From Streptomyces sp. SAI-135 (lineage in GTDB: Bacteria; Actinomycetota; Actinomycetes; Streptomycetales; Streptomycetaceae): a stretch of 64,000 nt of DNA. Positions 3,694 to 15,887 of this stretch are shown here, piece after piece. The first letter of the stretch is position 1, and each line of letters begins with the position of its first letter. The notes under the pieces were generated by a model. That model was not told the DNA's origin. It did not search any database and saw only the letters and a list, made by a program, of their open reading frames with translations. The stretch spans positions 4,588,001 to 4,652,000 of the forward strand of contig NZ_JARXYP010000002.1 in the NCBI RefSeq assembly GCF_029893805.1. The letters run 5' to 3'. Both the position numbers and the translations under genes were made by a program.

Positions 3694-3750
3694 GCGGTGG
3701 GTGTGGGATTTGAACCCACGGTGACTCGCGCCACGACGGTTTTCAAGACC
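3694..3750. repeat. Left attachment site (att core, 57-bp direct repeat)
   Basis: Identical to 15802-15858. It contains the 3' half of tRNA-Ser(UGA) from the anticodon stem to the 3' end on the minus strand, then diverges (TTTCGCC instead of GTTCCCT), so this copy is not a functional tRNA. Confidence 0.93.
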
Positions 3751-3831
3751 TTTCGCCGGTCTGGCAGTCAGCTCGTTTCCCCGCAGGTCAGAGGAGTACA
3801 GGAGCTTCGGTCACGCCATCACCGTTCTCCC

Positions 3832-3883
3832 CGTGCCCCCTACGTGCCCCTCACTCACTGCCGTGCCCTTCCGCAACGTGCCC
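3832..3883. promoter_or_regulatory. Four CGTGCCC repeats next to the att core: candidate integrase arm sites
   Basis: CGTGCCC occurs at 3832, 3843, 3862 and 3877 on the plus strand, 82 bp inside the left att. The first two are 11 bp apart. A pair with the same 11-bp spacing lies inside the right end (15688 and 15699). Matching repeats on both sides of the crossover region are typical of tyrosine-recombinase arm-type sites. Assignment is by pattern only. Confidence 0.5.
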
Positions 3884-3911
3884 ATACCTGCCCTGGCTCC
3901 TTCGAATGGAG

Positions 3912-4370
3912 TCATCCCACTACCACGGTGGCAACCACGGCGGCGATGGCCGACAGGAGCCCGCCGAGCCCCAAGAAGGCGTTGAACTTCTCCTTGGCCG
4001 TTGGGAACACGGCGCGACTGAAGTCACCGGCCTTGCTCCGTGTGACGATCAACGTGATTTTCTGCCACCGATGCTGCCGCCTACTGCACCCCATCAGCAC
4101 GCCGTAGGCGTTATCGCGGCAGTACGTTTTCTTGTCACGGTTCACCGCGCCACACCAGACCGGCACTTGGAAGCCCGCGTAGGCCGCGACAGCGACCGAC
4201 AGGGCCGCGATAACCGGCAACGCCCACTGCTGGCTCCATCCGACGATTAGAGCCGCAGTCACCATGTATCCCCAGTACAAACGCACCACTTTGCCCATGG
4301 CAACGCACAGTAGCGACCAGGGTCTGAGATCAACAGAAAGTAACAAGTCACTTTCTGTAGCTAGTTTCAT
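3912..4370 (-). CDS. Putative small membrane protein of the AICE left end
   Basis: Up to 152 residues from ATG 4370; an in-frame ATG at 4298 would give 128. Hydrophobic segments occur around residues 33-50, 53-72 and 133-150, with a charged, Cys-containing middle (CGAVNRDKKTYCRDNAYG). Neither start has a well-spaced ribosome site. An AT-rich inverted repeat (4333-4358) falls inside the first codons and a TTA codon lies there too, so the shorter form may be the real one. I do not recognise the family. It is transcribed toward the att site. Confidence 0.45.
   Translation of the reverse strand: MKLATESDLLLSVDLRPWSLLCVAMGKVVRLYWGYMVTAALIVGWSQQWALPVIAALSVAVAAYAGFQVPVWCGAVNRDKKTYCRDNAYGVLMGCSRRQHRWQKITLIVTRSKAGDFSRAVFPTAKEKFNAFLGLGGLLSAIAAVVATVVVG
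4333..4358. repeat. AT-rich 9-bp inverted repeat
   Basis: ACAGAAAGT and ACTTTCTGT are separated by 8 bases. The A/T content is unusual for this genome. It could be an operator or part of the attP architecture. It overlaps the first codons of the longer form of the neighbouring membrane protein. Confidence 0.45.
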
Positions 4371-4408
4371 GCCTCCACTCGCCTGGATCCGGCGAAGTCT
4401 GAATGCGA

Positions 4409-4441
4409 AAGTCCCCTGACCAACTCGCGATCAGGGGACTT
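4409..4441 (-). terminator. Terminator downstream of int
   Basis: An 11-bp perfect stem (AAGTCCCCTGA / TCAGGGGACTT) with an 11-base loop, starting 16 bases after the int stop codon and reading out of int on the minus strand. Confidence 0.8.
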
Positions 4442-4456
4442 CGTGGCCACACCGGC

Positions 4457-5584
4457 TCACCCGAGCGGATCACCCCGGTCTCCGCCGGTGAGCCAGCTAT
4501 CAGACGCTTCAGCGACCTGGTCATCACGACCGGCGACTGGTCGGGCATAGTGCCGGGTCGTGACGCTCGCGTTCGAGTGGCCCAGGCGGTGAGCTGCGGT
4601 CATCACGCCGTACCGGTCGGCGACCCATGTGCCGTGCGAAGCTCGCAGATCGTGCGGGGTCACGTCGGTCAGACCAGCCGCGGACACGGCGGGGTCAAAG
4701 TAGGCCTTGCGCCACTGGTTGTAGTGCAGAGGCTTGCCCGCCGGGGTGGTGAACAGCAGCGCAGCCCCGTCGTCCGGAAGGCTTTCCAGGTGCTTCCCGA
4801 GCCGCTTCGCGAGGGTGGGCGCCACACGGAGTAGCCGCTTCTGGTGAGACTTTGGAGTGTCGAAGACCAGGGCGCCGTTCGCCTCGGCAAGGTTCTCGTC
4901 GACGAGCACGGTGCCGCTCGCCACGTCGACGTCATCGCGGCGCAGCGCGAACCCCTCGCCGACTCGCAGGCCAGCAAAGGCCAGCAGGGCGATCAGCAAG
5001 TCATGGGGCTTCTCGGCCTTCCGCACGAGTCGTGAGGCTTCGAGCGGAGTCAGGATGTGCGGCTCTGTCTGCGGCATCCGGGGGAGGCGCACACCTCGGC
5101 AAGGCGTCTGCGCGATCAGCCCGTTGTCGACCGCCGACTGCATGACCTGGGACAGCACTCGGTACGCCTGCCGGATACGGGACGCGCTGAGCCCGACCGT
5201 CCGCATCTGCGCAACCCACTCCGTCACAGTGATCGGTCGCAGGCTCGACAACTCACGATCCCCCAGCGCCGGGTTGATCCGCGAGTTGATCAGAGATCGA
5301 TACGAGGCCTGTGTCTTGTGCTTGAGCTGCGGCGATACAGCGGCCAGCCAACGAGCCGCCCAGTCCCGTACCGTCGTCTGTCCTTCGGTCGGGTCGATCC
5401 AGCGGCCGTCTTCGATCTCGATTCGCTTCTTCGCCAGCCATCGATCAGCGTCGGTAGTCGTGGCGAACGTCCGGTCAGCAGGCCGAAGCACGCCATCAGG
5501 CCCCGGATACCGAGCCTGGAACCGCCCTGAGGGCAGCTTCCGAATCCGGCCGAAGTTCCGGCGAGACTTGCGCTTGCCAGCCAT
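4457..5584 (-). CDS. int: Tyrosine-recombinase integrase
   Basis: 375 residues from ATG 5584, which overlaps the xis stop (ATGA). The N-terminal third is an arm/SAM-like DNA-binding region (RNFGRIRKLPSGRFQARYPG). The C-terminal catalytic domain shows the RHRHY residues: Arg in ALLAFAGLRVGEG, His-x-x-Arg in HDLRASHG, His in HRLGHSNASVT and the nucleophile Tyr in RHYARP. It catalyses site-specific integration and, with Xis, excision at the 57-bp core in tRNA-Ser. The frame stays open upstream to 6166, but that part overlaps xis and rep and is spurious. The length is normal for AICE integrases. Confidence 0.93.
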   Translation of the reverse strand: MAGKRKSRRNFGRIRKLPSGRFQARYPGPDGVLRPADRTFATTTDADRWLAKKRIEIEDGRWIDPTEGQTTVRDWAARWLAAVSPQLKHKTQASYRSLINSRINPALGDRELSSLRPITVTEWVAQMRTVGLSASRIRQAYRVLSQVMQSAVDNGLIAQTPCRGVRLPRMPQTEPHILTPLEASRLVRKAEKPHDLLIALLAFAGLRVGEGFALRRDDVDVASGTVLVDENLAEANGALVFDTPKSHQKRLLRVAPTLAKRLGKHLESLPDDGAALLFTTPAGKPLHYNQWRKAYFDPAVSAAGLTDVTPHDLRASHGTWVADRYGVMTAAHRLGHSNASVTTRHYARPVAGRDDQVAEASDSWLTGGDRGDPLG

Positions 5585-5793
5585 CAGGCAGCCCCCCTGA
5601 GGCCCGTAGAACGAAGGATGACCGGTTCCACGGTGTTCGCGGCCACGTAGGCCTGTAGGGCCCGCTCGGGGATGCGGACATGCCGACCGACCTTCACGAA
5701 GGTGATCCGGCGCTCTTCGATCAGCCGACGCGGGAAGCGCACGGTCGTGCCCAGGAACTCGGCGACCTCGTGCACGTCGAGAAGCCTGTCCAT
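5584..5793 (-). CDS. xis: Excisionase / MerR-like helix-turn-helix DNA-binding protein
   Basis: 69 residues from ATG 5793, preceded by GGGGGAG at good spacing. A GTG at 5802 is in frame but has no room for a ribosome site. The sequence LLDVHEVAEFLGTT...RRLIEERRITFVKVGRHVRIPE is the winged-helix layout of excisionase-family proteins. It lies between rep (2-base gap) and int (4-base overlap), so the three are co-expressed as in pSAM2. Its expected role is to bend attL/attR DNA and drive Int toward excision. Confidence 0.9.
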   Translation of the reverse strand: MDRLLDVHEVAEFLGTTVRFPRRLIEERRITFVKVGRHVRIPERALQAYVAANTVEPVILRSTGLRGAA

Positions 5794-5795
5794 GG

Positions 5796-7193
5796 TTACC
5801 ACTCCCCCTCAGCTTCGGAGTTCGCCAAGTCAGCGAGGGCTTCGCGTGCGGTCTCGCGGTTGTGTTGGAGGTCGCGGCGGATGTTGGCGGCGAGCCAGGA
5901 TTCGCCGGGGGTGTGGCCGTGTCCGGCGTAGGTCCAGTGCGCGAGGGTGAGCGTGGTGGCCTCCGGGTTGTCGTCGGGGTCTGGCAGGCCGAGGGCTTCG
6001 CGTTGCTGGGCGGCGCGGTAGTCGGCACGGGTCTGGCGGAGGGCGCCGAGGGTGGTGGAGTAGCGGCGGGACTTGGTGGAGAAGTGGCCGCGGAAGCCGA
6101 GCATGTGGGCCCAGTCCCGCAGCTTGCGGTCCGGGTACAGCGCGTGCAGGTCGAGGCATGCCGCAATCAGCCGGGCAGGGTGCTCGGGCACATCGAGCAA
6201 GACCAGCGCTTCCTTGTTGCCGATCCGGCGGTCAACCGTGCCGGTCGTCTCAGCGGCTTTGGTGGCGTACTTCGCGACGTAGGCGGCGACCTTCTGTTCA
6301 GTGATGTCCTCGCCGTCCCCGAAGGCTTTGATCGGCTGGACGTCGAGCTTGACGCCCCAGCACAGCGTGCGGGCAGGCTGGTCACCGGCCGCGGGTACGT
6401 CGACGGCGACGCGCTTGCGGGCGGCGCGGATCGCTCCGGTGAGGAGTTCGAGGGTGGCCCAGGCCGGGGGCGGGGAGTCGGGCCCGTCCGGTCCGTCGAA
6501 GCGGATCACGGCATGGAAGTGCACGGCCCCGCGCTTTTGGTACTCAGCGACCTTCCCGAAGGAGACCCGGGACTGTTCCTTGGCATCCTTCTGCGTGAGC
6601 CCGGCCCGCTTGGCGATCTCGCGGCGCAGGTAGATCGTGAAGTAGCGCCACAGCTCGGAGGCGTGGTTGTTCCACAGCACCGCGCCCGCGTAGTCGTAGG
6701 TGTCGGGGTCAAGCGGAGTGCCCAGCTCGGCAGCGTCCTCGGGGTGGCGTACCCCGCAGCGGCAACGGCCGGTATCGGGCCGGTTGTGGACCCGCCCGAA
6801 CGACGGTGCGGTGAGGGTGGCGAACACCCGCGGGTGATCCCGGATGGTGTGCGGGGTGCCCTTGGCGGGATCTCCGACGAGTCCGGAGCGGATCAGGTGG
6901 TAGGTGTCTCCGGCGTAGGTCCAGGCGCAGGAGGGGCAGCGGGAGGCTCGCCGGTTGCCGCACGCGATCCGGAGTCGCCCACCGGGCTCGGTGTCGGTCG
7001 AGTAGGTGTGCAGGACCTGTCCGGAGGCAGCGTCGCGGGTGACGGTGGAGCCTTGCAGGTGGATGGGGTCGGAGCAGCCGCCGGTGCGGCGGATCTGGTC
7101 TTGGATGCGGTCGAAGCCGTCAGACCCGGCCAGCCTCAGCACGTCGGCGAGGGTGGCCGGGTCCAGGCCCGCCATGGTGGCGGTGTCGGTCAC
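5796..7193 (-). CDS. repSA: RepSA-like rolling-circle replication initiator
   Basis: 465 residues from GTG 7193, which overlaps the upstream stop as GTGA. The central HUH motif (RGAVHFHAVIRFDG, about residues 215-230) and the downstream KVAAYVAKYATKA segment with its tyrosine define a relaxase-type rolling-circle initiator. An N-terminal Cys-rich region (CGNRRASRCPSCAW, CRCGVRH) looks like zinc binding. The length matches pSAM2 RepSA. It nicks the double-strand origin of the excised circle. The C-terminus (YAGHGHTPGESWLAANIRRD) resembles that of other AICE Rep proteins. Confidence 0.92.
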   Translation of the reverse strand: MTDTATMAGLDPATLADVLRLAGSDGFDRIQDQIRRTGGCSDPIHLQGSTVTRDAASGQVLHTYSTDTEPGGRLRIACGNRRASRCPSCAWTYAGDTYHLIRSGLVGDPAKGTPHTIRDHPRVFATLTAPSFGRVHNRPDTGRCRCGVRHPEDAAELGTPLDPDTYDYAGAVLWNNHASELWRYFTIYLRREIAKRAGLTQKDAKEQSRVSFGKVAEYQKRGAVHFHAVIRFDGPDGPDSPPPAWATLELLTGAIRAARKRVAVDVPAAGDQPARTLCWGVKLDVQPIKAFGDGEDITEQKVAAYVAKYATKAAETTGTVDRRIGNKEALVLLDVPEHPARLIAACLDLHALYPDRKLRDWAHMLGFRGHFSTKSRRYSTTLGALRQTRADYRAAQQREALGLPDPDDNPEATTLTLAHWTYAGHGHTPGESWLAANIRRDLQHNRETAREALADLANSEAEGEW

Positions 7194-7993
7194 GTCCAGC
7201 ACCACCCGTTGTCGCAGCCTTCGTCGTCGGTGTCGAAGAGCGGCAGTTGGTCGCCGCCCTTGAACAGCTCCCGCAGGGGGCGTGCCAGGCGGGTCAGGTA
7301 GACCGGCCGTTTGCCCTTGGCTGCCAGGTGGGTGTTGATGGTGTCCTCGATCTGGCAGGCCCGCTCGAAGCGCTGCGGGTCCTGCTCGCGCATGGCCTGC
7401 CATTCGGGGATCTTGCGCACGGGGCAGAAGTCGCAGGACGACTTCGGCGGCACCGGCAGACCCGCGGAGCGGATGATGCGCGGGCAGTCTGCCCGGCGGA
7501 TCTTCAGGTCGAGGAGCGGATAGACGAGCCGCTCATAGGGCATGGCCTTGCCCGCGTTGGCACGGCCGATCTCGTCCAGGCTGATACCCATGGCGACCGT
7601 GGCCGGGTTGTCCTCGCTGGCGCCGTGTGCCGTCAGCCAGGCTCCGGTGACCCGGATCTTGAATTCCACGGTGCAAACGCGGGAGCCGGGTTTGCCGTTG
7701 GTCAAAAAGACCGGGATGGTCTGGCGGCTGCCGTTGCTGGTCATGATCCGCTGTCGGATCGTCTCGGTGCCGTTCTTGGTCTCGCGGTGCAGCTCGATCA
7801 GGTCGAGTCCGTGGGCAGCGGCGTACGGGGCGGCGTGCTGCTCGAAGTAGCGCAGTGTCGCGGGGTTTTCGCTGTCGGGGCCGACGTTGGCGAACAGGAA
7901 GGTGCGGAAGTCGAGGCGGCCCTGAGCGGCAAGGACGAGAGCGGCCATGGACTGCCAGCCGCCGCCGAAGCTGAAGGTGCGCAGATCGTTCAC
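7190..7993 (-). CDS. PP-loop enzyme, phosphoadenosine phosphosulfate reductase family
   Basis: 267 residues. The N-terminal SFGGGWQSMAALVLA (about residues 8-22) is a PP-loop nucleotide site, and CDFCPVRKIPEWQ in the C-terminal half supplies a Cys pair that may bind metal or Fe-S. Members act as adenylating sulfur-transfer or PAPS/APS-reducing enzymes, and DndC-like relatives modify DNA. The gene is coupled to rep (GTGA overlap) and to the small upstream gene (4-base overlap), so it belongs to the replication operon. No sulfur-assimilation partner is present, which argues for a nucleic-acid or element-specific role. Its function is unknown. Confidence 0.8.
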   Translation of the reverse strand: MNDLRTFSFGGGWQSMAALVLAAQGRLDFRTFLFANVGPDSENPATLRYFEQHAAPYAAAHGLDLIELHRETKNGTETIRQRIMTSNGSRQTIPVFLTNGKPGSRVCTVEFKIRVTGAWLTAHGASEDNPATVAMGISLDEIGRANAGKAMPYERLVYPLLDLKIRRADCPRIIRSAGLPVPPKSSCDFCPVRKIPEWQAMREQDPQRFERACQIEDTINTHLAAKGKRPVYLTRLARPLRELFKGGDQLPLFDTDDEGCDNGWCWT

Positions 7994-8202
7994 TGTCGGC
8001 CTCCACGGTGGGCGCGACCATGATTGGCGGTGTAGTCGTCGACCAGAGCCTTGACGTCGGTATCGCCGTTGGCGTGGTCCTCCGCACCGCAGCCGCCGCA
8101 GACGTAGTCGCCCTGCGAGCGCGTGTACTTGGTGGCGCCCTTGACGCGCAGGCCGGGACTTTCCTCGGTCGGGGTGAGGTCGGCGGGGAGCTTGCGGAAC
8201 AT
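7990..8202 (-). CDS. Small AICE protein with CxxC motif
   Basis: 70 residues from ATG 8202 to a stop that overlaps the start of the PP-loop gene. It has one CxxC (YVCGGCGAEDHANGDTDVKA) followed by an acidic/His stretch, possibly half a zinc ribbon. It is co-transcribed with the PP-loop gene and rep. I do not recognise the family. Confidence 0.65.
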   Translation of the reverse strand: MFRKLPADLTPTEESPGLRVKGATKYTRSQGDYVCGGCGAEDHANGDTDVKALVDDYTANHGRAHRGGRQ

Positions 8203-8207
8203 GCCCG

Positions 8208-8387
8208 TCACCTCCCGGCCCGGATGAGGGTGGCGGTGGTGCGGCGACCGGTGCCCTTGCAGGTGGAGCAGGTCACGGTGAGGGTGGCGCGGGTGCCGTC
8301 CGGGTTGCGGGTGCCGGTGGTGATGGCGACGACGGGGAAGCCGTCGCAGTCGCGGCAAACGGGCGTGTTCAGGGCATGCTGAGGCAT
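8208..8387 (-). CDS. Small zinc-ribbon-like AICE protein
   Basis: 59 residues from ATG 8387, with AAAGGGAAG upstream. Two Cys pairs (VCRDCDG and TCSTCKGTG) are about 29 residues apart. The second resembles a DnaJ-type CxxCxGxG zinc repeat. The next small gene (7990-8202) starts 5 bases after its stop. A second AICE gene (10108-10281) has a similar motif. It may be a nucleic-acid-binding accessory factor; the function is unknown. Confidence 0.65.
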   Translation of the reverse strand: MPQHALNTPVCRDCDGFPVVAITTGTRNPDGTRATLTVTCSTCKGTGRRTTATLIRAGR

Positions 8388-8431
8388 GATGAGACTTCCC
8401 TTTCGGGTCCTTTGGATCTGGAAGTGGTCCA

Positions 8432-8479
8432 GGCGCCCGGGGCGGCGGAAGTTTGGCGACCGAGGCCGCCCCGGGGGCC
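8432..8479 (-). terminator. GC-rich hairpin, possible attenuator
   Basis: 15-base arms (8432-8446 and 8465-8479) pair with a single mismatch around an 18-base loop. It lies directly after the stop of the 8482-8697 gene and before the 8208-8387 gene, so it could lower downstream expression within the operon. There is no T tract. Confidence 0.6.
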
Positions 8480-8481
8480 GT

Positions 8482-8697
8482 TTAGCGGCGGGAGTAGCCG
8501 TGCCCGCGCGGCGGGTAGGCGTCGGTGTCGCCGCAGTCGTCGACGAGGCCCTGAGCGTTCGCGGTGGCCAGCAGCGATCCGGCGACCACGGCCGTGAAGT
8601 CGTCGACCGGTCCGGACTTCAGGTCGACCGCGATGTCGGCGAGCATGTGCTGAGTCAGATCGCGGTCAGCCTTCTCGGGGTTGCTGAAGAAGCCCAT
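8482..8697 (-). CDS. Small AICE hypothetical protein
   Basis: 71 residues from ATG 8697 (MGFFSNPEKADRDLTQHMLA...), mostly helical and soluble, with a C-terminus rich in Gly/Tyr/Arg (YPPRGHGYSRR). It starts 1 base after the stop of the upstream membrane protein gene, so the two are coupled. I do not recognise the family; position suggests a transfer or spread accessory gene. Confidence 0.65.
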   Translation of the reverse strand: MGFFSNPEKADRDLTQHMLADIAVDLKSGPVDDFTAVVAGSLLATANAQGLVDDCGDTDAYPPRGHGYSRR

Positions 8698-8698
8698 G

Positions 8699-9007
8699 TC
8701 AGCGGTTCCTTTCGGAGTTGAGGATCGAGCGGATGACGAGCGCGCACACGGCCACCGACATGCCGGTGATGGCGACCGCAAGGAGCATGGAGACGAGGAC
8801 CGCGCCGACGACGAGGACCACGGCGCCGCCGCCCGCGGCGAGGGCGAGCGCGCTGCCGGGGGTGAGCTGAACGACCGGACGGTTCGACACCGGAGCGACC
8901 GGGGCCGGAGCGGCGGGGGCCGCCGGGGCGGGGAGATCGGAGGCCGGAACCGGGATCGTGTTGGCCGGCACGACGGTGTCCTGGGGCGGATATTTCGGGG
9001 TGAACAC
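8699..9007 (-). CDS. Spd-like small membrane protein
   Basis: 102 residues. A Pro/Ala/Val-rich N-terminus (about 1-45) is followed by two adjacent hydrophobic helices (about 50-72 and 77-95) and a short basic tail (RSILNSERNR). This is the layout of SpdB/SpdC-type intramycelial spread proteins of Streptomyces plasmids. It sits in the spread region between rep and the TraB gene. The role in spreading transferred DNA through septa is inferred from position and topology. Confidence 0.7.
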   Translation of the reverse strand: MFTPKYPPQDTVVPANTIPVPASDLPAPAAPAAPAPVAPVSNRPVVQLTPGSALALAAGGGAVVLVVGAVLVSMLLAVAITGMSVAVCALVIRSILNSERNR

Positions 9008-9031
9008 GGGTGATGTCCCTTCGGGCCGGGG

Positions 9032-9187
9032 CTACTTGACGAGCGAGTCGACGGTGGGGCCGAGGAAGCTTCCGGCGACGAGGTAGCCGCCGAGCAGGAG
9101 CAGGACCACCAGCCAGATCGGCGGGCGGGTGAGCTTGATGCCGAGGTAGCCGACGACAATCACGGCGAGCCAGAGCGGAACGTCCAT
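9032..9187 (-). CDS. Very small membrane protein of the spread region
   Basis: 51 residues from ATG 9187, almost entirely hydrophobic (PLWLAVIVVGYLGIKL and PPIWLVVLLLLGGYLVAG form two helices). Upstream AAGGGAGAT serves as ribosome site. Small hydrophobic Spd proteins are common in this place in AICEs. No catalytic motif. Confidence 0.65.
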   Translation of the reverse strand: MDVPLWLAVIVVGYLGIKLTRPPIWLVVLLLLGGYLVAGSFLGPTVDSLVK

Positions 9188-9203
9188 GACGGTGATCTCC
9201 CTT

Positions 9204-9392
9204 TCAGGCCTTGCAGCGGTGGGTCTGGGCAGCGAGTTCGGCGGCGGCGCGGTCGGTGTAGTCGGCGGAGAAGCCGCAGCCCGGCGCGGTGCACGCCGCG
9301 GCGTGCTTCTCACGGCCACGGCCGTCGTAGTACGTGCCGACCTGCACGGGGCCGAAGCGGCGCCGGTCACGGAAGCGGCGATAGGCGGTCAC
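9204..9392 (-). CDS. Small AICE protein with C/H zinc-binding pattern
   Basis: 62 residues from GTG 9392, chosen for the AAGGGGAG ribosome site 7 bases upstream. The body is basic (TAYRRFRDRRRFG), then C...C...H residues (AACTAPGCGFSADYTDRA, QTHRCKA) could bind one zinc ion. It lies between two membrane proteins of the spread cluster. I do not recognise the family. Confidence 0.6.
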   Translation of the reverse strand: MTAYRRFRDRRRFGPVQVGTYYDGRGREKHAAACTAPGCGFSADYTDRAAAELAAQTHRCKA

Positions 9393-9411
9393 GGGCGAAC
9401 TCCCCTTCAGA

Positions 9412-10074
9412 TCATGTGAGTTTGAGTTGAGCGGCGATAGCACCCGCCATGGGGGCGGGCAGTTGGAGCCGGGCCGACAGAGCGTCAGCGGGCATCGGCG
9501 ATCCGGTGGAAGCGCGGTGTGCGTCGGCGATCTTCCGCGCGTGATCCAGCAACGCGACCGGAACCGCAGGCACATCGGCCGGGGGCGCCTCGGGTGCGAC
9601 GGGTGCGGCGGGTGCCAGTTCCGGCACCGGGGCCGGGACGGGTTCGTCGTCGCCCTGCATGTCGACGTCCAGCGCCGCCGGTTCGTCCACAGCCTGTGCG
9701 GGAGCTGCCGGTTCAGTCGGCGAGTGCACGAGGAGGGTGCCACCGAGGAAGGCGAGCGCGGGCCAGCCAGCGACGAGGATGCGCAGCCAGGCGGGCACGT
9801 TCGCCAGATCCAGGAGCCCGGCAGTAGCGATGTTCGCGCCCAGCGAGGCGAACAGGGCAATCGTGAACCAGGTCCAGGCGGATCGGTCCCGGCGAGCCGA
9901 ACGCAGCCGACGCCAGGCGGCGACCAGCAGCAGATCAACCGAGATCGGATAGGCCCAGGCCTTCCAGCCGGATTGCCCGGCGGCTTCGGCAAGGTCGTGC
10001 AGATGGGCGAAGGACAGCGCACCAGCGATCACAGCCTGGATCAGTACAGCGTCCGGGCGCAGCGCTCGGGACAT
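9412..10074 (-). CDS. DUF2637-type membrane protein (SpdB-like spread protein)
   Basis: 220 residues. Four hydrophobic helices fill residues 8-120 (VLIQAVIAGALSFAHLHDLA, YPISVDLLLVAAW, FTIALFASLGANIATAGLL, LVAGWPALAFLGGTLLV). They are followed by a Pro/Ala/Glu-rich linker and a C-terminal helical cytosolic part (ARKIADAHRAST...LSARLQLP). This DUF2637 arrangement is frequent next to tra genes of Streptomyces integrative elements and is linked to intramycelial spreading. It lies two genes downstream of the translocase gene and is read in the same direction. Confidence 0.8.
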   Translation of the reverse strand: MSRALRPDAVLIQAVIAGALSFAHLHDLAEAAGQSGWKAWAYPISVDLLLVAAWRRLRSARRDRSAWTWFTIALFASLGANIATAGLLDLANVPAWLRILVAGWPALAFLGGTLLVHSPTEPAAPAQAVDEPAALDVDMQGDDEPVPAPVPELAPAAPVAPEAPPADVPAVPVALLDHARKIADAHRASTGSPMPADALSARLQLPAPMAGAIAAQLKLT

Positions 10075-10107
10075 AGGTCTTCACCTCCTTCCTGGAGAAG
10101 TGGGCGG

Positions 10108-10281
10108 CTAGTCGGTGGCTTCGCCGGAACCCAGGCAGGTCAGGCAGATGCCGGTCTGCTGGCCGACCGGGCGGCGCTTGCGGCCCACATGGACTGTGCG
10201 AGAGACCTCTCCGGAGCCCTTGCAGGTCGGGCACTTCGCCGGTTCGGCGGTCACGGTCGCGCGAGTCTTGGACGCGGCCAT
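10108..10281 (-). CDS. Small DnaJ-type zinc-repeat protein
   Basis: 57 residues from ATG 10281. A GTG at 10290 overlapping the TraB stop is an alternative that would add 3 residues. Two CxxCxGxG motifs (CPTCKGSGE and CLTCLGSGE) form a complete DnaJ-like zinc site. The protein is immediately downstream of the translocase gene. It may aid protein or DNA interactions during transfer; function is unproven. Confidence 0.7.
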   Translation of the reverse strand: MAASKTRATVTAEPAKCPTCKGSGEVSRTVHVGRKRRPVGQQTGICLTCLGSGEATD

Positions 10282-10286
10282 GACGA

Positions 10287-11606
10287 TCACTTGACCAGCG
10301 AGGGAGCGGCGGCGGCCGGGGTGGGAACGTGGGGCCGGAACGGGGCGAGGAACGGCAGGTCGGGCACCAGGTGCTCAAAGTCCCGGCAGGTCGCGGCGAC
10401 CTTGTCACGGGAGATCTGCGGTGTGCGGATCTTGCACCAGCCGCCCTCCGCATCCGTGGCCACGGCCGTGCCGGGCCGGTTCGCGGGGATCACACAGGCG
10501 GTCGGGACCGCGGTCGGGGCAACGTCCTTCAGCCCCATCTCAGCCGTCTCCTTGTCGTTCACGCGGTGCACCACCCGGCCCGTGAGCTGAGCGCGGAGCA
10601 TGGTGGCGCCCTTGCCCAGGTCGGAGCCGAAGCGCTGCCCGCAGATCTCCAGGTAGATGCCGACCGCGCGAGCCATCTGCGCGAGACGGATCAGCGCCGT
10701 GACAATCCGCGTGCGACGGTCCTCGTCCTCCTTGCGGGAGATCAGGAACAGCTCAGCGATCTCGTCGACCAGCACCACGACCGGCGCAGGCCGCACATCC
10801 TCCGGCAGCTCCCAGATGTCCGAGGCGCCGTGCAGGTTCAGCAGATCGAAGCGGTCTTCCATCTCCGCCACCAGCACATCGGCCAGCGAGGCGGCATCAT
10901 CCGGGTTGGTCGCCAGCGCGGACAGGCGGGGCGCGTACGCGGACTGTTCCACCCCGCGCTTGCAGTCCATCCCCACCAGCGCGACCGGCAGTTGAGCGAG
11001 CCCGTTGATCAGGTTGCGCTGATACATCGACTTGCCGGAGAAGTTGGCTCCCAGCGTGAGGGCCATCGGGACCTTGCGGTAGTCCCGCTCGAACGCGGTC
11101 CCGTCATCGCGCAGCGCCACCGGTACGGCCATGTCGTGAGGCTGGGCCTTGCGTGGCATCCGCACCCGGCGCAGCACGTCATAACCGGTCATCCGCAGTT
11201 CGACGACGCCCGGCTTGACGACCACGACGCGCACGGAGTGGACACCCCAGGCGTGCCGAAGACGCTCCGTCGAGGCGATCACGTCGGCAGGTTCCAGACC
11301 GGCCGGAAGCCGCAGCGTCACCCGCAGCCCGGTCGAGGTGGGCCGTATCCGGCGGATCTTCGGCGCTACCGGCTGCACCTCACGCCGGGCCACGTTGCGC
11401 GCCATGAACGCCCGCAGGCCGGACGGCTGCACCGTCAGACCGCACACGTCCATCGTCGAGCGGTACGAGTAGGAGAACCGGCCCCACGTGGCGGGCAGGC
11501 CGACCAGCGACCAGTACGTGCGCGGGGCCCGGTACTTCGCGTAGCCGACACCGCCAGCCGCCGACGCGGCTCCCGTGGCCTCCAGCCACACCGTCCAGTC
11601 AGCCAT
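10287..11606 (-). CDS. traB: TraB/FtsK-like DNA translocase (conjugal transfer)
   Basis: 439 residues. The N-terminal part includes a short membrane-proximal region (residues 1-50). The motor domain has Walker A GANFSGKS (about 185-192) and Walker B VVVLVDEIAEL (about 275), in the FtsK/SpoIIIE family order. In Streptomyces plasmids a single TraB hexamer pumps double-stranded DNA between hyphae after binding short repeats at clt. It is in a run of minus-strand genes headed by the 11609-11941 gene, downstream of KorSA-like operators, so its expression is probably KorSA-controlled, as over-expression of tra is lethal in related plasmids. Confidence 0.92.
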   Translation of the reverse strand: MADWTVWLEATGAASAAGGVGYAKYRAPRTYWSLVGLPATWGRFSYSYRSTMDVCGLTVQPSGLRAFMARNVARREVQPVAPKIRRIRPTSTGLRVTLRLPAGLEPADVIASTERLRHAWGVHSVRVVVVKPGVVELRMTGYDVLRRVRMPRKAQPHDMAVPVALRDDGTAFERDYRKVPMALTLGANFSGKSMYQRNLINGLAQLPVALVGMDCKRGVEQSAYAPRLSALATNPDDAASLADVLVAEMEDRFDLLNLHGASDIWELPEDVRPAPVVVLVDEIAELFLISRKEDEDRRTRIVTALIRLAQMARAVGIYLEICGQRFGSDLGKGATMLRAQLTGRVVHRVNDKETAEMGLKDVAPTAVPTACVIPANRPGTAVATDAEGGWCKIRTPQISRDKVAATCRDFEHLVPDLPFLAPFRPHVPTPAAAAPSLVK

Positions 11607-11608
11607 GA

Positions 11609-11941
11609 TCAGGCACCAAGCGGGGTGATCGCGACCGCGCGGAAGGAGATCCCGTGTCGCTTCTGGCCGTTGAACTCGTTCTCCCAGTCACGCGCCTTCA
11701 GGCCTGTCACGACCACCGGGGTGCCCGGCGTCAGGCCCTTGGGGTAACCGGTCTCCGGCACGGTCACCTGGTAGAGGTTGCCCTCCCCCTCGTCCGAGAC
11801 CAGCAGGCCCACCGTCGACAGGTCCGCACCCGTCTCCCGGTCCACGGCCCGCTCACCGGTCTTCTTGTTGACCATCTTCGGCTCCGGCGCGGTCGCAACG
11901 AAGACGACAGCGGACGAAGTGTCGATCTTGAAGGACGGCAT
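11609..11941 (-). CDS. Conserved AICE protein upstream of traB
   Basis: 110 residues from ATG 11941, with AGAGGAGA at good spacing; a longer frame to 11974 lacks such a site. The translation (MPSFKIDTSSAVVFVATAPE... YPKGLTPGTPVVVTGLKARDW) looks like a small beta-barrel, OB-fold-like protein. It ends 2 bases before traB. Two KorSA-type operator copies lie just upstream, so it is the first gene of the main repressed operon. It could be a DNA-binding transfer accessory or the counterpart of pSAM2 genes in this position; function unknown. Confidence 0.75.
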   Translation of the reverse strand: MPSFKIDTSSAVVFVATAPEPKMVNKKTGERAVDRETGADLSTVGLLVSDEGEGNLYQVTVPETGYPKGLTPGTPVVVTGLKARDWENEFNGQKRHGISFRAVAITPLGA

Positions 11942-11972
11942 TGCATCTCCTCTATAAGAGCTGATCTCCTGC

Positions 11973-11988
11973 ACTCATGTACAGGAGT
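11973..11988. promoter_or_regulatory. KorSA-type operator copy 1
   Basis: ACTCATGTACAGGAGT, an imperfect palindrome centred on TGTACA, 32 bp upstream of the start of the tra operon. It recurs at 12009-12024 and inverted at 12877-12891. All copies are next to genes that KorSA controls in pSAM2. Confidence 0.75.
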
Positions 11989-12008
11989 TACGAGTAGAAG
12001 AGTGCCTA

Positions 12009-12024
12009 GCTCATGTACAGGAGT
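12009..12024. promoter_or_regulatory. KorSA-type operator copy 2
   Basis: GCTCATGTACAGGAGT in the same orientation as copy 1, centre-to-centre 36 bp away, which could allow cooperative dimer binding across the tra operon promoter. Confidence 0.75.
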
Positions 12025-12075
12025 CAAGCGTTCTGCGGCACCAAGCCGCGAAGTGGCTTGAAAGAGACGGGGCTG

Positions 12076-12855
12076 TCAGTCCCGCGCGGGGAAGCGGTAA
12101 TCCAAAACGAACTGGTCAGCAGCCATGATGGTGTCGCACACCTCGACTACTCGCCCGTCGTCCGAAAAGGCACTGCGGACCAAGTGGACAACAGGTGCGC
12201 CGGGGCTCAGGGCCAGGGCAGTTGCTTCAGCCTTGGTGGCCAGTCGTGCTTTCACGGTCTCGACGAACTCCGCCAGCATGTGGCCATGCTCTTCAAGGCG
12301 GGCGTAGATTCCACCGCCGCCGGGGTTCTCGGCGAACATCTCGGGGATGTCCTTCACCACATCCCAGGGCAGGTAGGACGTTGCCTCTTCAGTGGGGATG
12401 CCGTCGCGGAAGTACCTGCGCTTGCGAGCAAGGACCTTGGTTCCTGTCGTGACGTTCAGTCGCTCCGCAATCTCGACCGGCGCGTCGACAGGGCCGACGT
12501 AGAGCACATTCACGGAGGGGGTGCCGCCAGACTGCTCGGCTTCGGCGAGGTAGGCAGCCTTACCGGCTTTACGGTGTGCCCGACGAAAGCGATCGGATGA
12601 CTTCCGCTGGACAGGGGGCCGCGAGCGGACGAAGGAACCGCGCCCGTGGTGGGTCTCGATCAACTGCGCGGCCCGCAGCTCGGCCACCGCCTTGCGTACC
12701 GTTCCCGAGGCGACGCTGTATCGAGCCATCAGATCGGCCTCGCTGGGTACCGGAGCCCCAGGCTCCAATGCCCCCGACCTGATCTGCGCTGCGAGATCAT
12801 CCGCGATCTGGAGGTACTTTGCCTTGGCCGAAGATGTCACGTCGTCTGTCGCCAT
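12076..12855 (-). CDS. korSA: KorSA-like GntR/HutC-family transcriptional repressor
   Basis: 259 residues from ATG 12855. The N-terminal winged helix-turn-helix (about residues 8-75, KYLQIADDLAAQIRSGALEPGAPVPSEADLMARYSVASGTVRKA) is a GntR domain. The C-terminal UTRA ligand domain has the HutC-type fold (VLARKRRYFRDGIPTEEATSYLPW). In pSAM2, KorSA represses pra and so controls replication and transfer. Here the three TGTACA-centred palindromes flank this gene on both sides, which supports repression of the tra operon and of the divergent Nudix gene, and autoregulation. Confidence 0.9.
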   Translation of the reverse strand: MATDDVTSSAKAKYLQIADDLAAQIRSGALEPGAPVPSEADLMARYSVASGTVRKAVAELRAAQLIETHHGRGSFVRSRPPVQRKSSDRFRRAHRKAGKAAYLAEAEQSGGTPSVNVLYVGPVDAPVEIAERLNVTTGTKVLARKRRYFRDGIPTEEATSYLPWDVVKDIPEMFAENPGGGGIYARLEEHGHMLAEFVETVKARLATKAEATALALSPGAPVVHLVRSAFSDDGRVVEVCDTIMAADQFVLDYRFPARD

Positions 12856-12876
12856 AGTCCTACAGTCTCCCCTATT

Positions 12877-12891
12877 CTCCTGTACATGAGT
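12877..12891. promoter_or_regulatory. KorSA-type operator copy 3, covering the Nudix start codon
   Basis: CTCCTGTACATGAGT, the reverse complement of copy 1. It sits between the divergent korSA and Nudix genes, and the ATG of the Nudix gene (12886-12888) is part of the palindrome. Confidence 0.75.
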
Positions 12892-13347
12892 AACAGCCAC
12901 CCGCAGAGCCCGTCAACGCCGCTCCACTCGGTATCGGTGGCGGGAGTCGTTGTGCGTGAGGACGGGCGCGTGTTGGTGATTCGCCGTGCCGACAACGGCA
13001 CGTGGGAGCCGCCCGGCGGGGTGCTTGAGCGTACGGAAGCCATCGAAGATGGGGTCCGCCGCGAGGTATACGAGGAGACCGGGATCAAGGTGCGCGTCGA
13101 GCGCTTGACCGGCGTCTACAAGAACATGACGGTTGGCGTTGTCGCCCTGGTGTTCAGGTGTCAGCCCGAAGGCGGTCACGAACAGCTCTCGGCCGAGTCG
13201 ACCGCTGTTGCATGGCTCACCCCGGACGAGGCAGTAGCGGCGATGGGCGAGGTCTACGCGGTGCGCATCGCGGACGCTTTGCGCGACGAAGCGCCGCACA
13301 TCCGGACGCATGACGGCCGCAAGCTGACGCCACCGGTCGGCAACTGA
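12886..13347 (+). CDS. pif: Nudix hydrolase, Pif-like plasmid immunity factor
   Basis: 153 residues. The Nudix box is complete: GGVLERTEAIEDGVRREVYE followed by ETGI, matching GX5EX7REUXEEXGU. In pSAM2 the Nudix protein Pif, next to korSA, blocks redundant transfer into cells that already hold the element. The ATG lies inside a KorSA operator and no purine-rich ribosome site precedes it, so the mRNA may be leaderless. Its 3' end is part of a 145-bp tandem duplication (13248-13537). The duplicate copy of the C-terminal codons downstream is not translated from a start of its own. Confidence 0.85.
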   Translation: MSNSHPQSPSTPLHSVSVAGVVVREDGRVLVIRRADNGTWEPPGGVLERTEAIEDGVRREVYEETGIKVRVERLTGVYKNMTVGVVALVFRCQPEGGHEQLSAESTAVAWLTPDEAVAAMGEVYAVRIADALRDEAPHIRTHDGRKLTPPVGN

Positions 13348-13537
13348 TCTTCGCCCGGGAACCCGGACCTGTTACAGATTTCTCTACCTCATCGAGGTCT
13401 ACGCGGTGCGCATCGCGGACGCTTTGCGCGACGAAGCGCCGCACATCCGGACGCATGACGGCCGCAAGCTGACGCCACCGGTCGGCAACTGATCTTCGCC
13501 CGGGAACCCGGACCTGTTACAGATTTCTCTACCTCAT
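13248..13537. repeat. Exact 145-bp tandem duplication
   Basis: 13248-13392 is repeated without mismatch at 13393-13537. Each copy holds the last 32 codons of the Nudix gene, its stop and about 45 bases of 3' sequence. Perfect identity means a recent event or an assembly artefact. Confidence 0.95.
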
Positions 13538-13543
13538 CAAGGG

Positions 13544-13560
13544 CCCGCGCAAAGCGCGGG
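13544..13560 (+). terminator. Hairpin after the Nudix gene
   Basis: A perfect 7-bp stem CCCGCGC / GCGCGGG with an AAA loop, followed by further GC hairpins. Probable terminator of the Nudix transcript. Confidence 0.65.
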
Positions 13561-13758
13561 CTGGCCCCTTGGGCCTGGCCCTCTGCGCCTTCGGCGCCGG
13601 GCCTGGCCCCTGGGGCCGCAAGCATGTTACGGCCCGGACGGTAGAACCCTAGACGGGCAGGCCACGGTCAGAACGATGCCTCCGGCGGGGGATCGGCCGG
13701 CACCGGGATGGAGGGGGCGCCGCACGCGACTGCGGGTCCGAAGTGGCATGCGCGGGGA

Positions 13759-13908
13759 GCTCCCATCCCGTCCGCCGTCGACCCAGGCAGAGCCGAGCAG
13801 ACGCGGCCCATGGCGTCCAGGTCGTTCGTACAGTGGCGCGCTCCACCTGGACGCCATGAACCACGCCCGCTCCACGGTGTGTGGGTCGACGGCGGACGGG
13901 ATGGGAGC
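13759..13908. repeat. Nested inverted repeats (27-bp outer, 14-bp inner arms)
   Basis: Outer arms 13759-13785 and 13882-13908 are perfect complements over 27 bases. Inside them 13809-13822 and 13845-13858 pair over 14 bases. Single-stranded, this 150-base segment would fold into a large branched structure, as expected for a single-strand origin or transfer site. A diverged copy of the right half lies at about 14988-15055. Confidence 0.8.
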
Positions 13909-14114
13909 GGGGGTGAGTGGTTGGTTGATGAAAAACCAGGTCTGGGTGGGCTAAGCCCAAGAGAAGGTAGCCCACCCAGAACAAATCAGTGGCGGTGATT
14001 CCACCAGTAGAGCCCAAGCACTCCGATGCCGCTCAGACTCGCCTTGATTGAGATCCGGATGAACTCGTCACTGGCAGAGTGCAAGAGACGCCGCACCTGG
14101 AGTCGAGCCGGATG

Positions 14115-14230
14115 TTCCGCAAACCGAGAGCGTACGCGAGCACGCTCCCTAGCTGGGTAGGCGATCTCAGCACGGCGTTTCGCAAGCTGAGAGCGTACGC
14201 GAGCACGCTTCCGAGCTGGGTAGGCGATCC
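14115..14230. repeat. Two direct repeats with 63-bp period
   Basis: The core GAGAGCGTACGCGAGCACGC starts at 14126 and again at 14189, and GCTGGGTAGGCGAT follows in both. The core includes the palindrome GCGTACGC. Candidate iteron or protein-binding repeats. Confidence 0.75.
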
Positions 14231-14640
14231 CTGAGACAGGGCGATGTCCGAGTCGACGCCTACACTTCCTGGTGCTGGGAATGTCGACCTCCTTTGGTTG
14301 GCGTTTCCGACTGAGATGGCGGCCTCCTGCTTGAGACCAGGGGGCCGCCGCCATTTCTGACGGTGGCCCGTGGCCGCGCACGAACAGTCTGACGCACCGC
14401 ACTGACAGTAGGAGCCTCTCGGGGTTTCAAGCCGCCCAAGAGCGCACAGGCCTGACACACTCCGCCTGCAACAGGCGGTTTGCCGGTCCCTCGCCAGCTG
14501 GACGCCCAACCGGGCTCGAACTGCCCCATCAGCTAGACCTCTTCGCAGTCCAGAAGCGCGGGGGCATCTGCTCTTCGACCAGCGACCAATTCGGGAGTTG
14601 CTACCTCTTGGCGCTGTCGAACCAGCAGCTCGTTGCAGAC

Positions 14641-14654
14641 GTTTCACGTGAAAC
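14641..14654. promoter_or_regulatory. parS site (ParB binding) inside the AICE
   Basis: GTTTCACGTGAAAC, a perfect match to the Streptomyces parS consensus. It is unexpected within a mobile element and is near the dnaA fragment. Confidence 0.85.
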
Positions 14655-14814
14655 GCGGGCACGCCGACCTGCGCGAGCTGCCCACCGACCGGAACTTGCA
14701 GTCTGTACGTAGAACTTGGCTTTCCCCGTGTACACCACGACCTTCGGCCATGCCGTGTTCTAGGTGTACGCCTCGATCTCAGAGGACACACCCTCACGCC
14801 GCACGTGTAACGCC

Positions 14815-14977
14815 CTTTGAAGGTGTGGAAGAACTCCTCCTGCGTCGACTCCTTGTGCACGAGGAACTGGATGTCGTCGACGAGCAGGACGTCCATCTCG
14901 CGGTAGCGCTTGCGGAAGCTGTCGCCCTTGCCGTCGCGGATGGAGTTGATGACCTCGTTGGTGAACTCCTCCGAGCC
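14815..14977 (-). pseudogene. dnaA fragment (AAA+ Walker B region)
   Basis: In one minus-strand frame 53 residues read as Dna[19 protein letters not shown], then [20 protein letters not shown] with the Walker B aspartates, then [13 protein letters not shown]. An in-frame TAG sits just before this segment and the similarity stops abruptly after HTF. There is no ribosome site or complete domain, so this is a short copied piece of the chromosomal initiator gene, not a functional protein. VHK replaces the expected EDK/ADK, so it has drifted a little. Confidence 0.85.
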
Positions 14978-15270
14978 CTAGTCGTGCCGCGCCCCGGACG
15001 CCCTGACCACACCCGCTCTATCGAGTGGGGGTCGGCGGCAAACGGGATGGAACCTGAGGAGGGGCCGGGGATGACGCGCCGCCGACTTGCAGCGGCCGTT
15101 CAGACTCCGCCGACCTTGTCAGTGCCATCCGCTAGAGTTCGAAGTTTGGCTGCCCGTCAACATCGAGCACTAGATGTAGTGGTCGATACTCGCCAGTAGC
15201 ACAACCTGTGGGGGTCATGCTTGCTGTCGGGGCGTCAGAAGTGCTGTACTTGTCCTGACCGAAAACAAGC

Positions 15271-15322
15271 AGGCCCCACCCGGGGCTCGACTTGAGGTCG
15301 AGTCATCGGCATGGGGCCTTTT
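15271..15322 (+). terminator. Two-armed terminator-like hairpin
   Basis: AGGCCCCA (15271-15278) pairs with TGGGGCCT (15312-15319), enclosing a second stem CTCGAC / GTCGAG, and TTTT follows. It reads as a terminator on the plus strand. No clear gene precedes it, so it may end a small RNA or act as a leader attenuator for the 15411 gene. Confidence 0.65.
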
Positions 15323-15410
15323 GCGTTGGCGCGCCTTGGGACCCTACAACGGCTGACATGGTTGTCCAAGTCTTCGCGGCAGATGATTCGACCTCGGAAA
15401 CGAGGTATTC

Positions 15411-15686
15411 ATGCCCGCGAGATCTATGCTCATCGGCTACGACCTGAACCGCCCTGGCCAGAACTACGACTCGCTCTTCGAAGCGATCAAGGAACTGGGC
15501 ACGTGGTGGCACCACCTCGACTCCACCTGGATCGTCAAAACGACGAAGACCACGGTGCAGGTGTGTGACGCCCTGAAGCGCCACATCGACTCCAACGACG
15601 AACTCCTCGTCGTCGCGCTGACCGGTGAGGGAGCCTGGATCGGGTTCAACGACCGGGGCAGCAAGTGGCTCAAGGACAACCTCTGA
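15411..15686 (+). CDS. SinR-family small protein, possibly Cas2/VapD-like fold
   Basis: 91 residues from ATG 15411, with GAGG upstream. The N-terminal MLIGYDLNRPGQNYDSLFEA, an alternating strand-helix pattern, and a DELLVVALTGEGAWIGFND strand pair recall the ferredoxin-like fold and Asp position of Cas2 and VapD nucleases. Streptomyces homologues are often labelled SinR-family proteins. No cas genes or CRISPR repeats are nearby. It is the last gene before the tRNA attachment site and could be a solitary toxin- or nuclease-like cargo gene. The fold assignment is inference. Confidence 0.7.
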   Translation: MPARSMLIGYDLNRPGQNYDSLFEAIKELGTWWHHLDSTWIVKTTKTTVQVCDALKRHIDSNDELLVVALTGEGAWIGFNDRGSKWLKDNL

Positions 15687-15687
15687 C

Positions 15688-15705
15688 CGTGCCCCTGCCG
15701 TGCCC
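15688..15705. promoter_or_regulatory. Pair of CGTGCCC repeats: candidate integrase arm site, right end
   Basis: CGTGCCC at 15688 and 15699, 11 bp apart, matches the spacing of the first pair at the left end (3832 and 3843). It lies 97 bp from the right att core. Confidence 0.5.
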
Positions 15706-15758
15706 GATCACCCGGGAACCGACGGGGAATCGCGGTGAATAGCGGACAGTCTGCATGA

Positions 15759-15797
15759 GAACGGCCCCTGACCGATTCACCTGGTCAGGGGCCGTTC
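15759..15797. terminator. Bidirectional terminator
   Basis: A perfect 15-bp stem (GAACGGCCCCTGACC / GGTCAGGGGCCGTTC) with a 9-base loop lies between the plus-strand SinR-family gene and the 3' end of minus-strand tRNA-Ser. Confidence 0.9.
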
Positions 15798-15801
15798 ACC
15801 T

Positions 15802-15858
15802 GCGGTGGGTGTGGGATTTGAACCCACGGTGACTCGCGCCACGACGGTTTTCAAGACC
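15802..15858. repeat. Right attachment site (att core, 57-bp direct repeat)
   Basis: Identical to 3694-3750 and overlaps the 3' half of the intact tRNA-Ser gene. Recombination between the two copies would excise the AICE. Confidence 0.93.
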
Positions 15859-15887
15859 GTTCCCTTAGGCCGCTCGGGCAACCCACC
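15803..15887 (-). tRNA. tRNA-Ser(UGA)
   Basis: 85 bases. The acceptor arm GGTGGGT / ACCCACC, discriminator G, anticodon stem ACGGT / ACCGT around loop CTTGAAA (anticodon UGA), a long variable arm and T-arm GTGGG-TTCAAAT-CCCAC are all present. CCA is not encoded. It is the integration target of the AICE, and its 3' half is now supplied by the element side without changing the sequence. Confidence 0.95.

Follow-up and report, generated by a model that had tools for sequence, protein, structure and literature searches.

How does a piece of the replication initiator gene dnaA come to lie in the arm of an integrative element, and does it do anything there? The question is raised by a window of 64,000 nt (the whole stretch of DNA analysed, C2:4588001-4652000) from the 10.4 Mb genome of Streptomyces sp. 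SAI-135. A sequence-only reading had described the piece as a Walker B segment of dnaA captured by an AICE, and had offered scar tissue, a source of antisense RNA or a patch of homology for recombination as explanations. We consider these here, together with a parS-type palindrome that lies beside the fragment.

The element and its right arm

The window carries a 12.2 kb element at 3694-15862 in tRNA-Ser(tga), the ends of which are formed by a 61-bp direct repeat (98% identity) at 3694-3754 and 15802-15862, over the tRNA gene. It encodes a RepSA-family initiator (PF20199, E 1.5e-152), an FtsK/SpoIIIE-type transfer protein (PF01580, E 1.2e-27) and a tyrosine integrase (PF00589), while Pfam assigns other genes to a GntR/UTRA regulator, a DUF2637 protein and Nudix. 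Judged from its RepSA and FtsK-type Tra proteins, its integrase and its tRNA att repeats, the element belongs to the pSAM2-type AICEs, with which it has the gene set, the initiator family and the att arrangement in common; it is unlike them in having a right arm with origin-region scraps and an exact parS. That the fragment lies inside an AICE is therefore borne out by the gene set and the att repeat. Beside the RepSA gene, a 267-aa open frame at 7190-7993 has no Pfam match and is absent from the alignments with four related loci (L052, L049, L050 and L092).

The arm in which the dnaA fragment sits extends from the Nudix gene to att. A landmark of this arm is a 266-bp intergenic dyad at 13660-13925, conserved in the AICE family and recognised from relatives and hairpin prediction; 64 of 80 related loci contain a match to it of 200 bp or more at 85-95% identity, and it is predicted to form a long, strong hairpin (z -3.9). 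It may serve as a single-strand origin or as a transfer site, and it resembles stretches found in Streptomyces plasmids. Alignment with L052, an AICE of the same family in tRNA-Ser(tga), delimits a variable zone at 14370-15672 that holds both scraps and the parS. L052 has about 505 other bases in its place and lacks the dnaA and dnaN-upstream scraps, hence the zone is dispensable. Two further features of the arm are a 150-bp duplication at 13393-13542, comprising the 3' end of the Nudix gene and the sequence that follows it (99% identical to 13248-13397), and a diverged piece of dyad at 14993-15060, beside the dnaA fragment, which is about 78-82% identical to the dyads of several relatives.

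Identity and decay of the dnaA fragment

A search of the host's own genome matched window positions 14817-14976 (minus strand) to dnaA at C2:4706861-4707020, in a gene identified as DnaA by Pfam, with 155 of 160 bases identical (97%, E 9e-72). The reported Walker B match is thus real and its coordinates were correct to within 2 bases. Given the assumed start codon, the fragment covers approximately codons 401-453 of roughly 669, and its translation includes LLVDDIQF, presumably the Walker B motif. The stretch is present in dnaA genes, with 390 of 392 genomes matching at E≤1e-8. The host's dnaA lies 104 kb from the fragment, and the two copies are mutually inverted. Similarity to dnaA breaks off sharply at both ends of the fragment, in line with the abrupt divergence described for the locus. 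The in-frame TAG noted there is also present, at 14978-14980 (minus strand), but in the sense direction it directly precedes the fragment and does not end its 3' side, where the frame stays open into sequence that is not dnaA. The first 36 residues of an ORF at 14033-14896 match Pfam Bac_DnaA (E 1.5e-8). A functional dnaA can be rejected: there is no continuous frame with the AAA+ core and domain IV, codons 401-453 or so being what is left, with the TAG upstream.

The substitutions in the fragment point to a loss of coding constraint, and the segment is apparently non-coding. Compared with a consensus built from 37 chromosomal copies, it shows four differences, none synonymous and four nonsynonymous, and each of these private changes is seen in 0 of the 37. 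Variants among the 37 copies, most of which came from loci picked for high similarity to the scrap and are not a random sample, comprise 14 synonymous and 7 nonsynonymous changes, compared with 0 and 4 in the fragment (Fisher p 0.026). The private changes of seven other dnaA shards are also more often nonsynonymous than synonymous, in a tally that leaves out any change also present in a chromosomal copy and is thereby biased toward such an excess. The fragment's 0 synonymous and 4 nonsynonymous changes, few as they are, give no sign of purifying selection acting on the protein. On this comparison the segment is not a gene and would be drifting without coding selection.

A second scrap from the same region

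A copy of the dnaA-dnaN spacer, 44 bp long, lies at 14382-14425 (minus strand) and is 95% identical to C2:4708403-4708446, the spacer just upstream of dnaN (dnaN by Pfam). The two scraps keep their chromosomal order and orientation, with 391 bp between them versus 1,382 in the chromosome. Capture of origin-region DNA by the AICE, as first suggested from the dnaA piece, is supported by the presence of both scraps within the element. In a sample of 246 genomes (G343 lay outside it), where each genome contributed no more than three scored candidates, 125 match the spacer scrap at E≤1e-5 and the SAI-135 genome is the only one with two copies. A search for the source of the DNA between the scraps returned, besides the window itself, only matches of up to 63 bases, in 37 of the 246 genomes including the host's own.

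Recurrence in relatives, genomes and plasmids

Both scraps recur in one of the 80 related AICE loci (L122), where the dnaA copy is degraded, and neither is seen in the other 79, nine of the 80 being incomplete on the arm side; the segment is accordingly no full, conserved reading frame of related AICEs. L122, on a contig of S. resistomycificus, is an AICE bounded by repeats, and its scraps follow the window's order; the window's sequence between the scraps has no match in it at E≤1e-3, although the scraps themselves matched.

A second copy of the dnaA stretch was found in 10 of 392 Streptomyces genomes, SAI-135 included (E≤1e-8, two candidates scored per genome). In G069, G196 and G351 the extra copy is a near-full, divergent DnaA paralog. 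Paralogs in three genomes (L152, L154 and L156) have 66-69% amino acid identity over about 340-350 residues, in the C-terminal half. In G063 it is an inverted piece within the host's own dnaA region, perhaps the product of local rearrangement or assembly. Shards of dnaA are present in G067, G137, G207, G237 and G343, the last of which has two, one of them in a related AICE (L122/L153). Plasmids carry shards as well, namely NZ_CP109138 (L003), in which a Tn3-family transposase gene lies next to the shard, and pFP11 (NC_006911). The pFP11 shard comes from the same dnaA stretch, with about 82% identity over 104 bp, and is more diverged than that of the window; it is annotated as a 74-aa 'DnaA/Hda family protein' and lies narrowly above the Pfam Bac_DnaA cut-off, but is probably a mere fragment.

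Is the Walker B stretch a hotspot of capture? In the same 295 genomes (G000-G294, own genome included), extra copies number 8 for the Walker B stretch, 3 for the 160-bp stretch just upstream in dnaA (Walker A) and 4 for a downstream stretch (p 0.22 and 0.38, respectively, against Walker B), all three counts being lower bounds with two candidates scored per genome. Once paralogs and local rearrangement are dropped (G069 and G196 in each set, G063 in the Walker B set), 5, 1 and 2 remain (p 0.22 for 5 vs 1; p 0.13 for 5/295 vs 3/590), with the extra copies of G016, G124 and G169, like the control copies, counted as fragments without inspection. The Walker B stretch is also more conserved and hence easier to find. 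Since neighbouring stretches of dnaA recur at a rate that is not significantly lower, no hotspot emerges, and extra dnaA pieces seem to be a low-level general feature and not a speciality of Walker B. The capture had been called odd; this holds insofar as only 10 of 392 genomes have an extra copy, but not as a peculiarity of this stretch, as other parts of dnaA are not significantly rarer.

A parS palindrome beside the fragment

The variable zone also contains, at 14641-14654, an exact parS-type palindrome of 14 bp found by motif search, GTTTCACGTGAAAC, which we take to be the chromosomal parS consensus. The host genome has 18 exact copies including that in the AICE, all on C2 at 4.60-4.80 Mb, around dnaA, and encodes ParB (Pfam); the site fits a chromosomal parS in being the same exact palindrome as the clustered host sites, with a host ParB present. 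Under a first-order model about 2e-5 exact sites are expected in the window AICE, and the 80 related loci (1.54 Mb) hold 10 in 7 loci against about 0.001 expected, so that, by these counts, parS is clearly more frequent in AICE DNA than chance would give. Across the 8 loci tested, three exact sites fall between att repeats (L056, L100 and L124) and five outside them (two in L056, one in L076 and two in L109), and the other two, one each in L060 and L063, may lie inside or outside. Past the dyad toward att, arm sites occur in the window and at L056:7066, L100:7406, L124:7527 and L063:8208, the last in a locus where no bounding repeat was found; judged by eye, the sequences around these five sites look unrelated. 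L122 has a site with one mismatch inside its repeats. All three bounded, parS-bearing relatives sit at tRNA-Ile(gat), a site used in 16 of the 80 related loci, just three of which have an exact parS inside the element (in a fourth, L076, the site falls outside), and a preference of parS-bearing AICEs for origin-near sites is not established.

The palindrome probably did not arrive with the dnaA-dnaN segment, as a search of 38 dnaA loci, each some 3 kb long, gave no parS with up to one mismatch. The three related AICEs with parS inside their repeat-defined ends suggest that some AICEs may borrow the host's ParABS. In a stronger form, some AICEs would hijack that system by means of an exact parS in the arm from the dyad to att, with ParB loading on the element both when integrated and as an excised, replicating circle, which would thereby be tethered to the segregating origin region, and capture of origin DNA in the same zone would be a by-product of life beside oriC; we regard this as possible but doubtful. 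Mimicry of parS has been tested in another integrative element, SGI1, which likewise carries partition sites of another replicon and draws on the ParABS of a helper plasmid (PMC10954446). The candidate site in the window, by contrast, is of chromosomal type. Some AICE sites have clusters of chromosomal parS nearby, so that local capture of the candidate parS without any function is a live alternative.

Origin of the scraps

We consider it probable that the dnaA segment was captured from the chromosomal gene and is decaying, most likely without function. Of the explanations first offered, scar tissue is the one that reads best, given the private nonsynonymous drift and the rarity of the segment in related AICEs. 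An ancestor of the AICE would have taken up Streptomyces origin-region DNA, both a dnaA piece and dnaA-dnaN spacer, into the variable zone between the conserved dyad and the att end; neither oriC nor the 3' part of dnaA survives, and the leftover piece would drift free of coding selection. The route of capture is inferred, as is the absence of function. Most likely, short fragments would have been copied or joined when a double-strand break was repaired, by end joining or microhomology. In S. ambofaciens, 30 bp to 18.8 kb of the genome's own DNA are reported to have been inserted at repaired breaks in five events (PMC5869714). Those insertions, which followed I-SceI cutting (PMC5869714), are alike in being short own-genome pieces at unrelated places. 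The window differs in having two collinear, drifted pieces in a mobile element. A second route may be imprecise recombination of an element near oriC, for instance of an AICE at tRNA-Ile(gat), a gene that related AICEs use and whose position here, C2:4718415, is some 10 kb away from the source of the dnaN scrap. Among the literature matches listed, none reports such a case in its title or the opening of its abstract.

The shards may instead descend from one old chimeric element, made of dnaA Walker B, the dnaA C-terminus and dnaE, that spread among Streptomyces elements, which we think unlikely. A 546-bp deletion brings the Walker B stretch up against the dnaA 3' end in L150 and L151, the same join occurs with six unaligned bases in L003, and in all three (one plasmid and two genomes) a piece of dnaE (by Pfam) follows; such mosaics are also what stitched fragments would look like. 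Near the mosaic of L150 there is a borderline hit to the end of a Tn3 transposase (E 2.8e-5, falling narrowly short of the Pfam cut-off), and the sequence past the dnaE piece in L003 has as its best Pfam match a weak one below the cut-off (E 0.011). The common junction, an additional 25-bp remnant of the dnaA C-terminus in L157 and the similar 5' boundaries (7 of 8 compared shards begin within host 4706847-4706876) speak for common descent; the similar starts and the junction run counter to random filler, unless the shards share descent. Against it, none of the private substitutions of the window copy recurs in the seven others it was compared with, its decay is less advanced than that of L122, L149, L004 and L157, and searches of the window arm gave no dnaE piece. 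Private changes amount to 4/160 in the window scrap versus 13/119 in that of L122 (binomial p 0.006). This unequal decay and the lack of a common private change make a single, clock-like capture for these two unlikely; to explain their common scrap order one would then have to assume two capture events, gene conversion by the chromosomal gene or decay at unequal rates.

Another possibility is that the scraps are relics of a larger dnaA-oriC-dnaN capture, the AICE having once been an oriC/parS-type replicon from which oriC was deleted and parS left. The collinearity of the scraps and the exact parS between them would fit such a history, but we find it quite improbable: the element has its own RepSA, parS is missing from the 38 dnaA loci, and TTGTCCACA, which we take to be the DnaA box consensus, occurs with up to one mismatch 0 times in 13926-15410 versus 9 times in the host dnaA-dnaN spacer. 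With 0 boxes in 13926-15410, the arm has no DnaA-box cluster of the kind that marks a chromosomal oriC, and an origin role of the scraps lacks support.

Very unlikely, in our view, is a dnaA-antisense RNA or a DnaA decoy through which the element would damp host initiation. The recurrence of dnaA pieces in plasmids and other places might favour one, but the segment was not found in 79 of the 80 related loci (9 incomplete on the arm side), drifts as non-coding DNA, and comes from a gene whose neighbouring stretches recur not significantly less often. The homology patch is hardly credible even though the two copies, 104 kb apart, are 97% identical over 160 bp. The fragment is internal to dnaA, so that integration of the excised circle by one crossover would disrupt an essential gene, and recombination between the inverted copies would, from their coordinates, invert about 104 kb.

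Implications for AICE biology

A captured, decaying scrap of dnaA is an example of core-genome DNA that enters a conjugative element and then decays, and it calls for caution, as such scraps may be annotated as 'DnaA family' genes, as in pFP11. Its most interesting neighbour is the parS beside it, a lead more worth testing than the scrap itself: if the candidate site works, some AICEs would be maintained through the host's own chromosome-segregation system.
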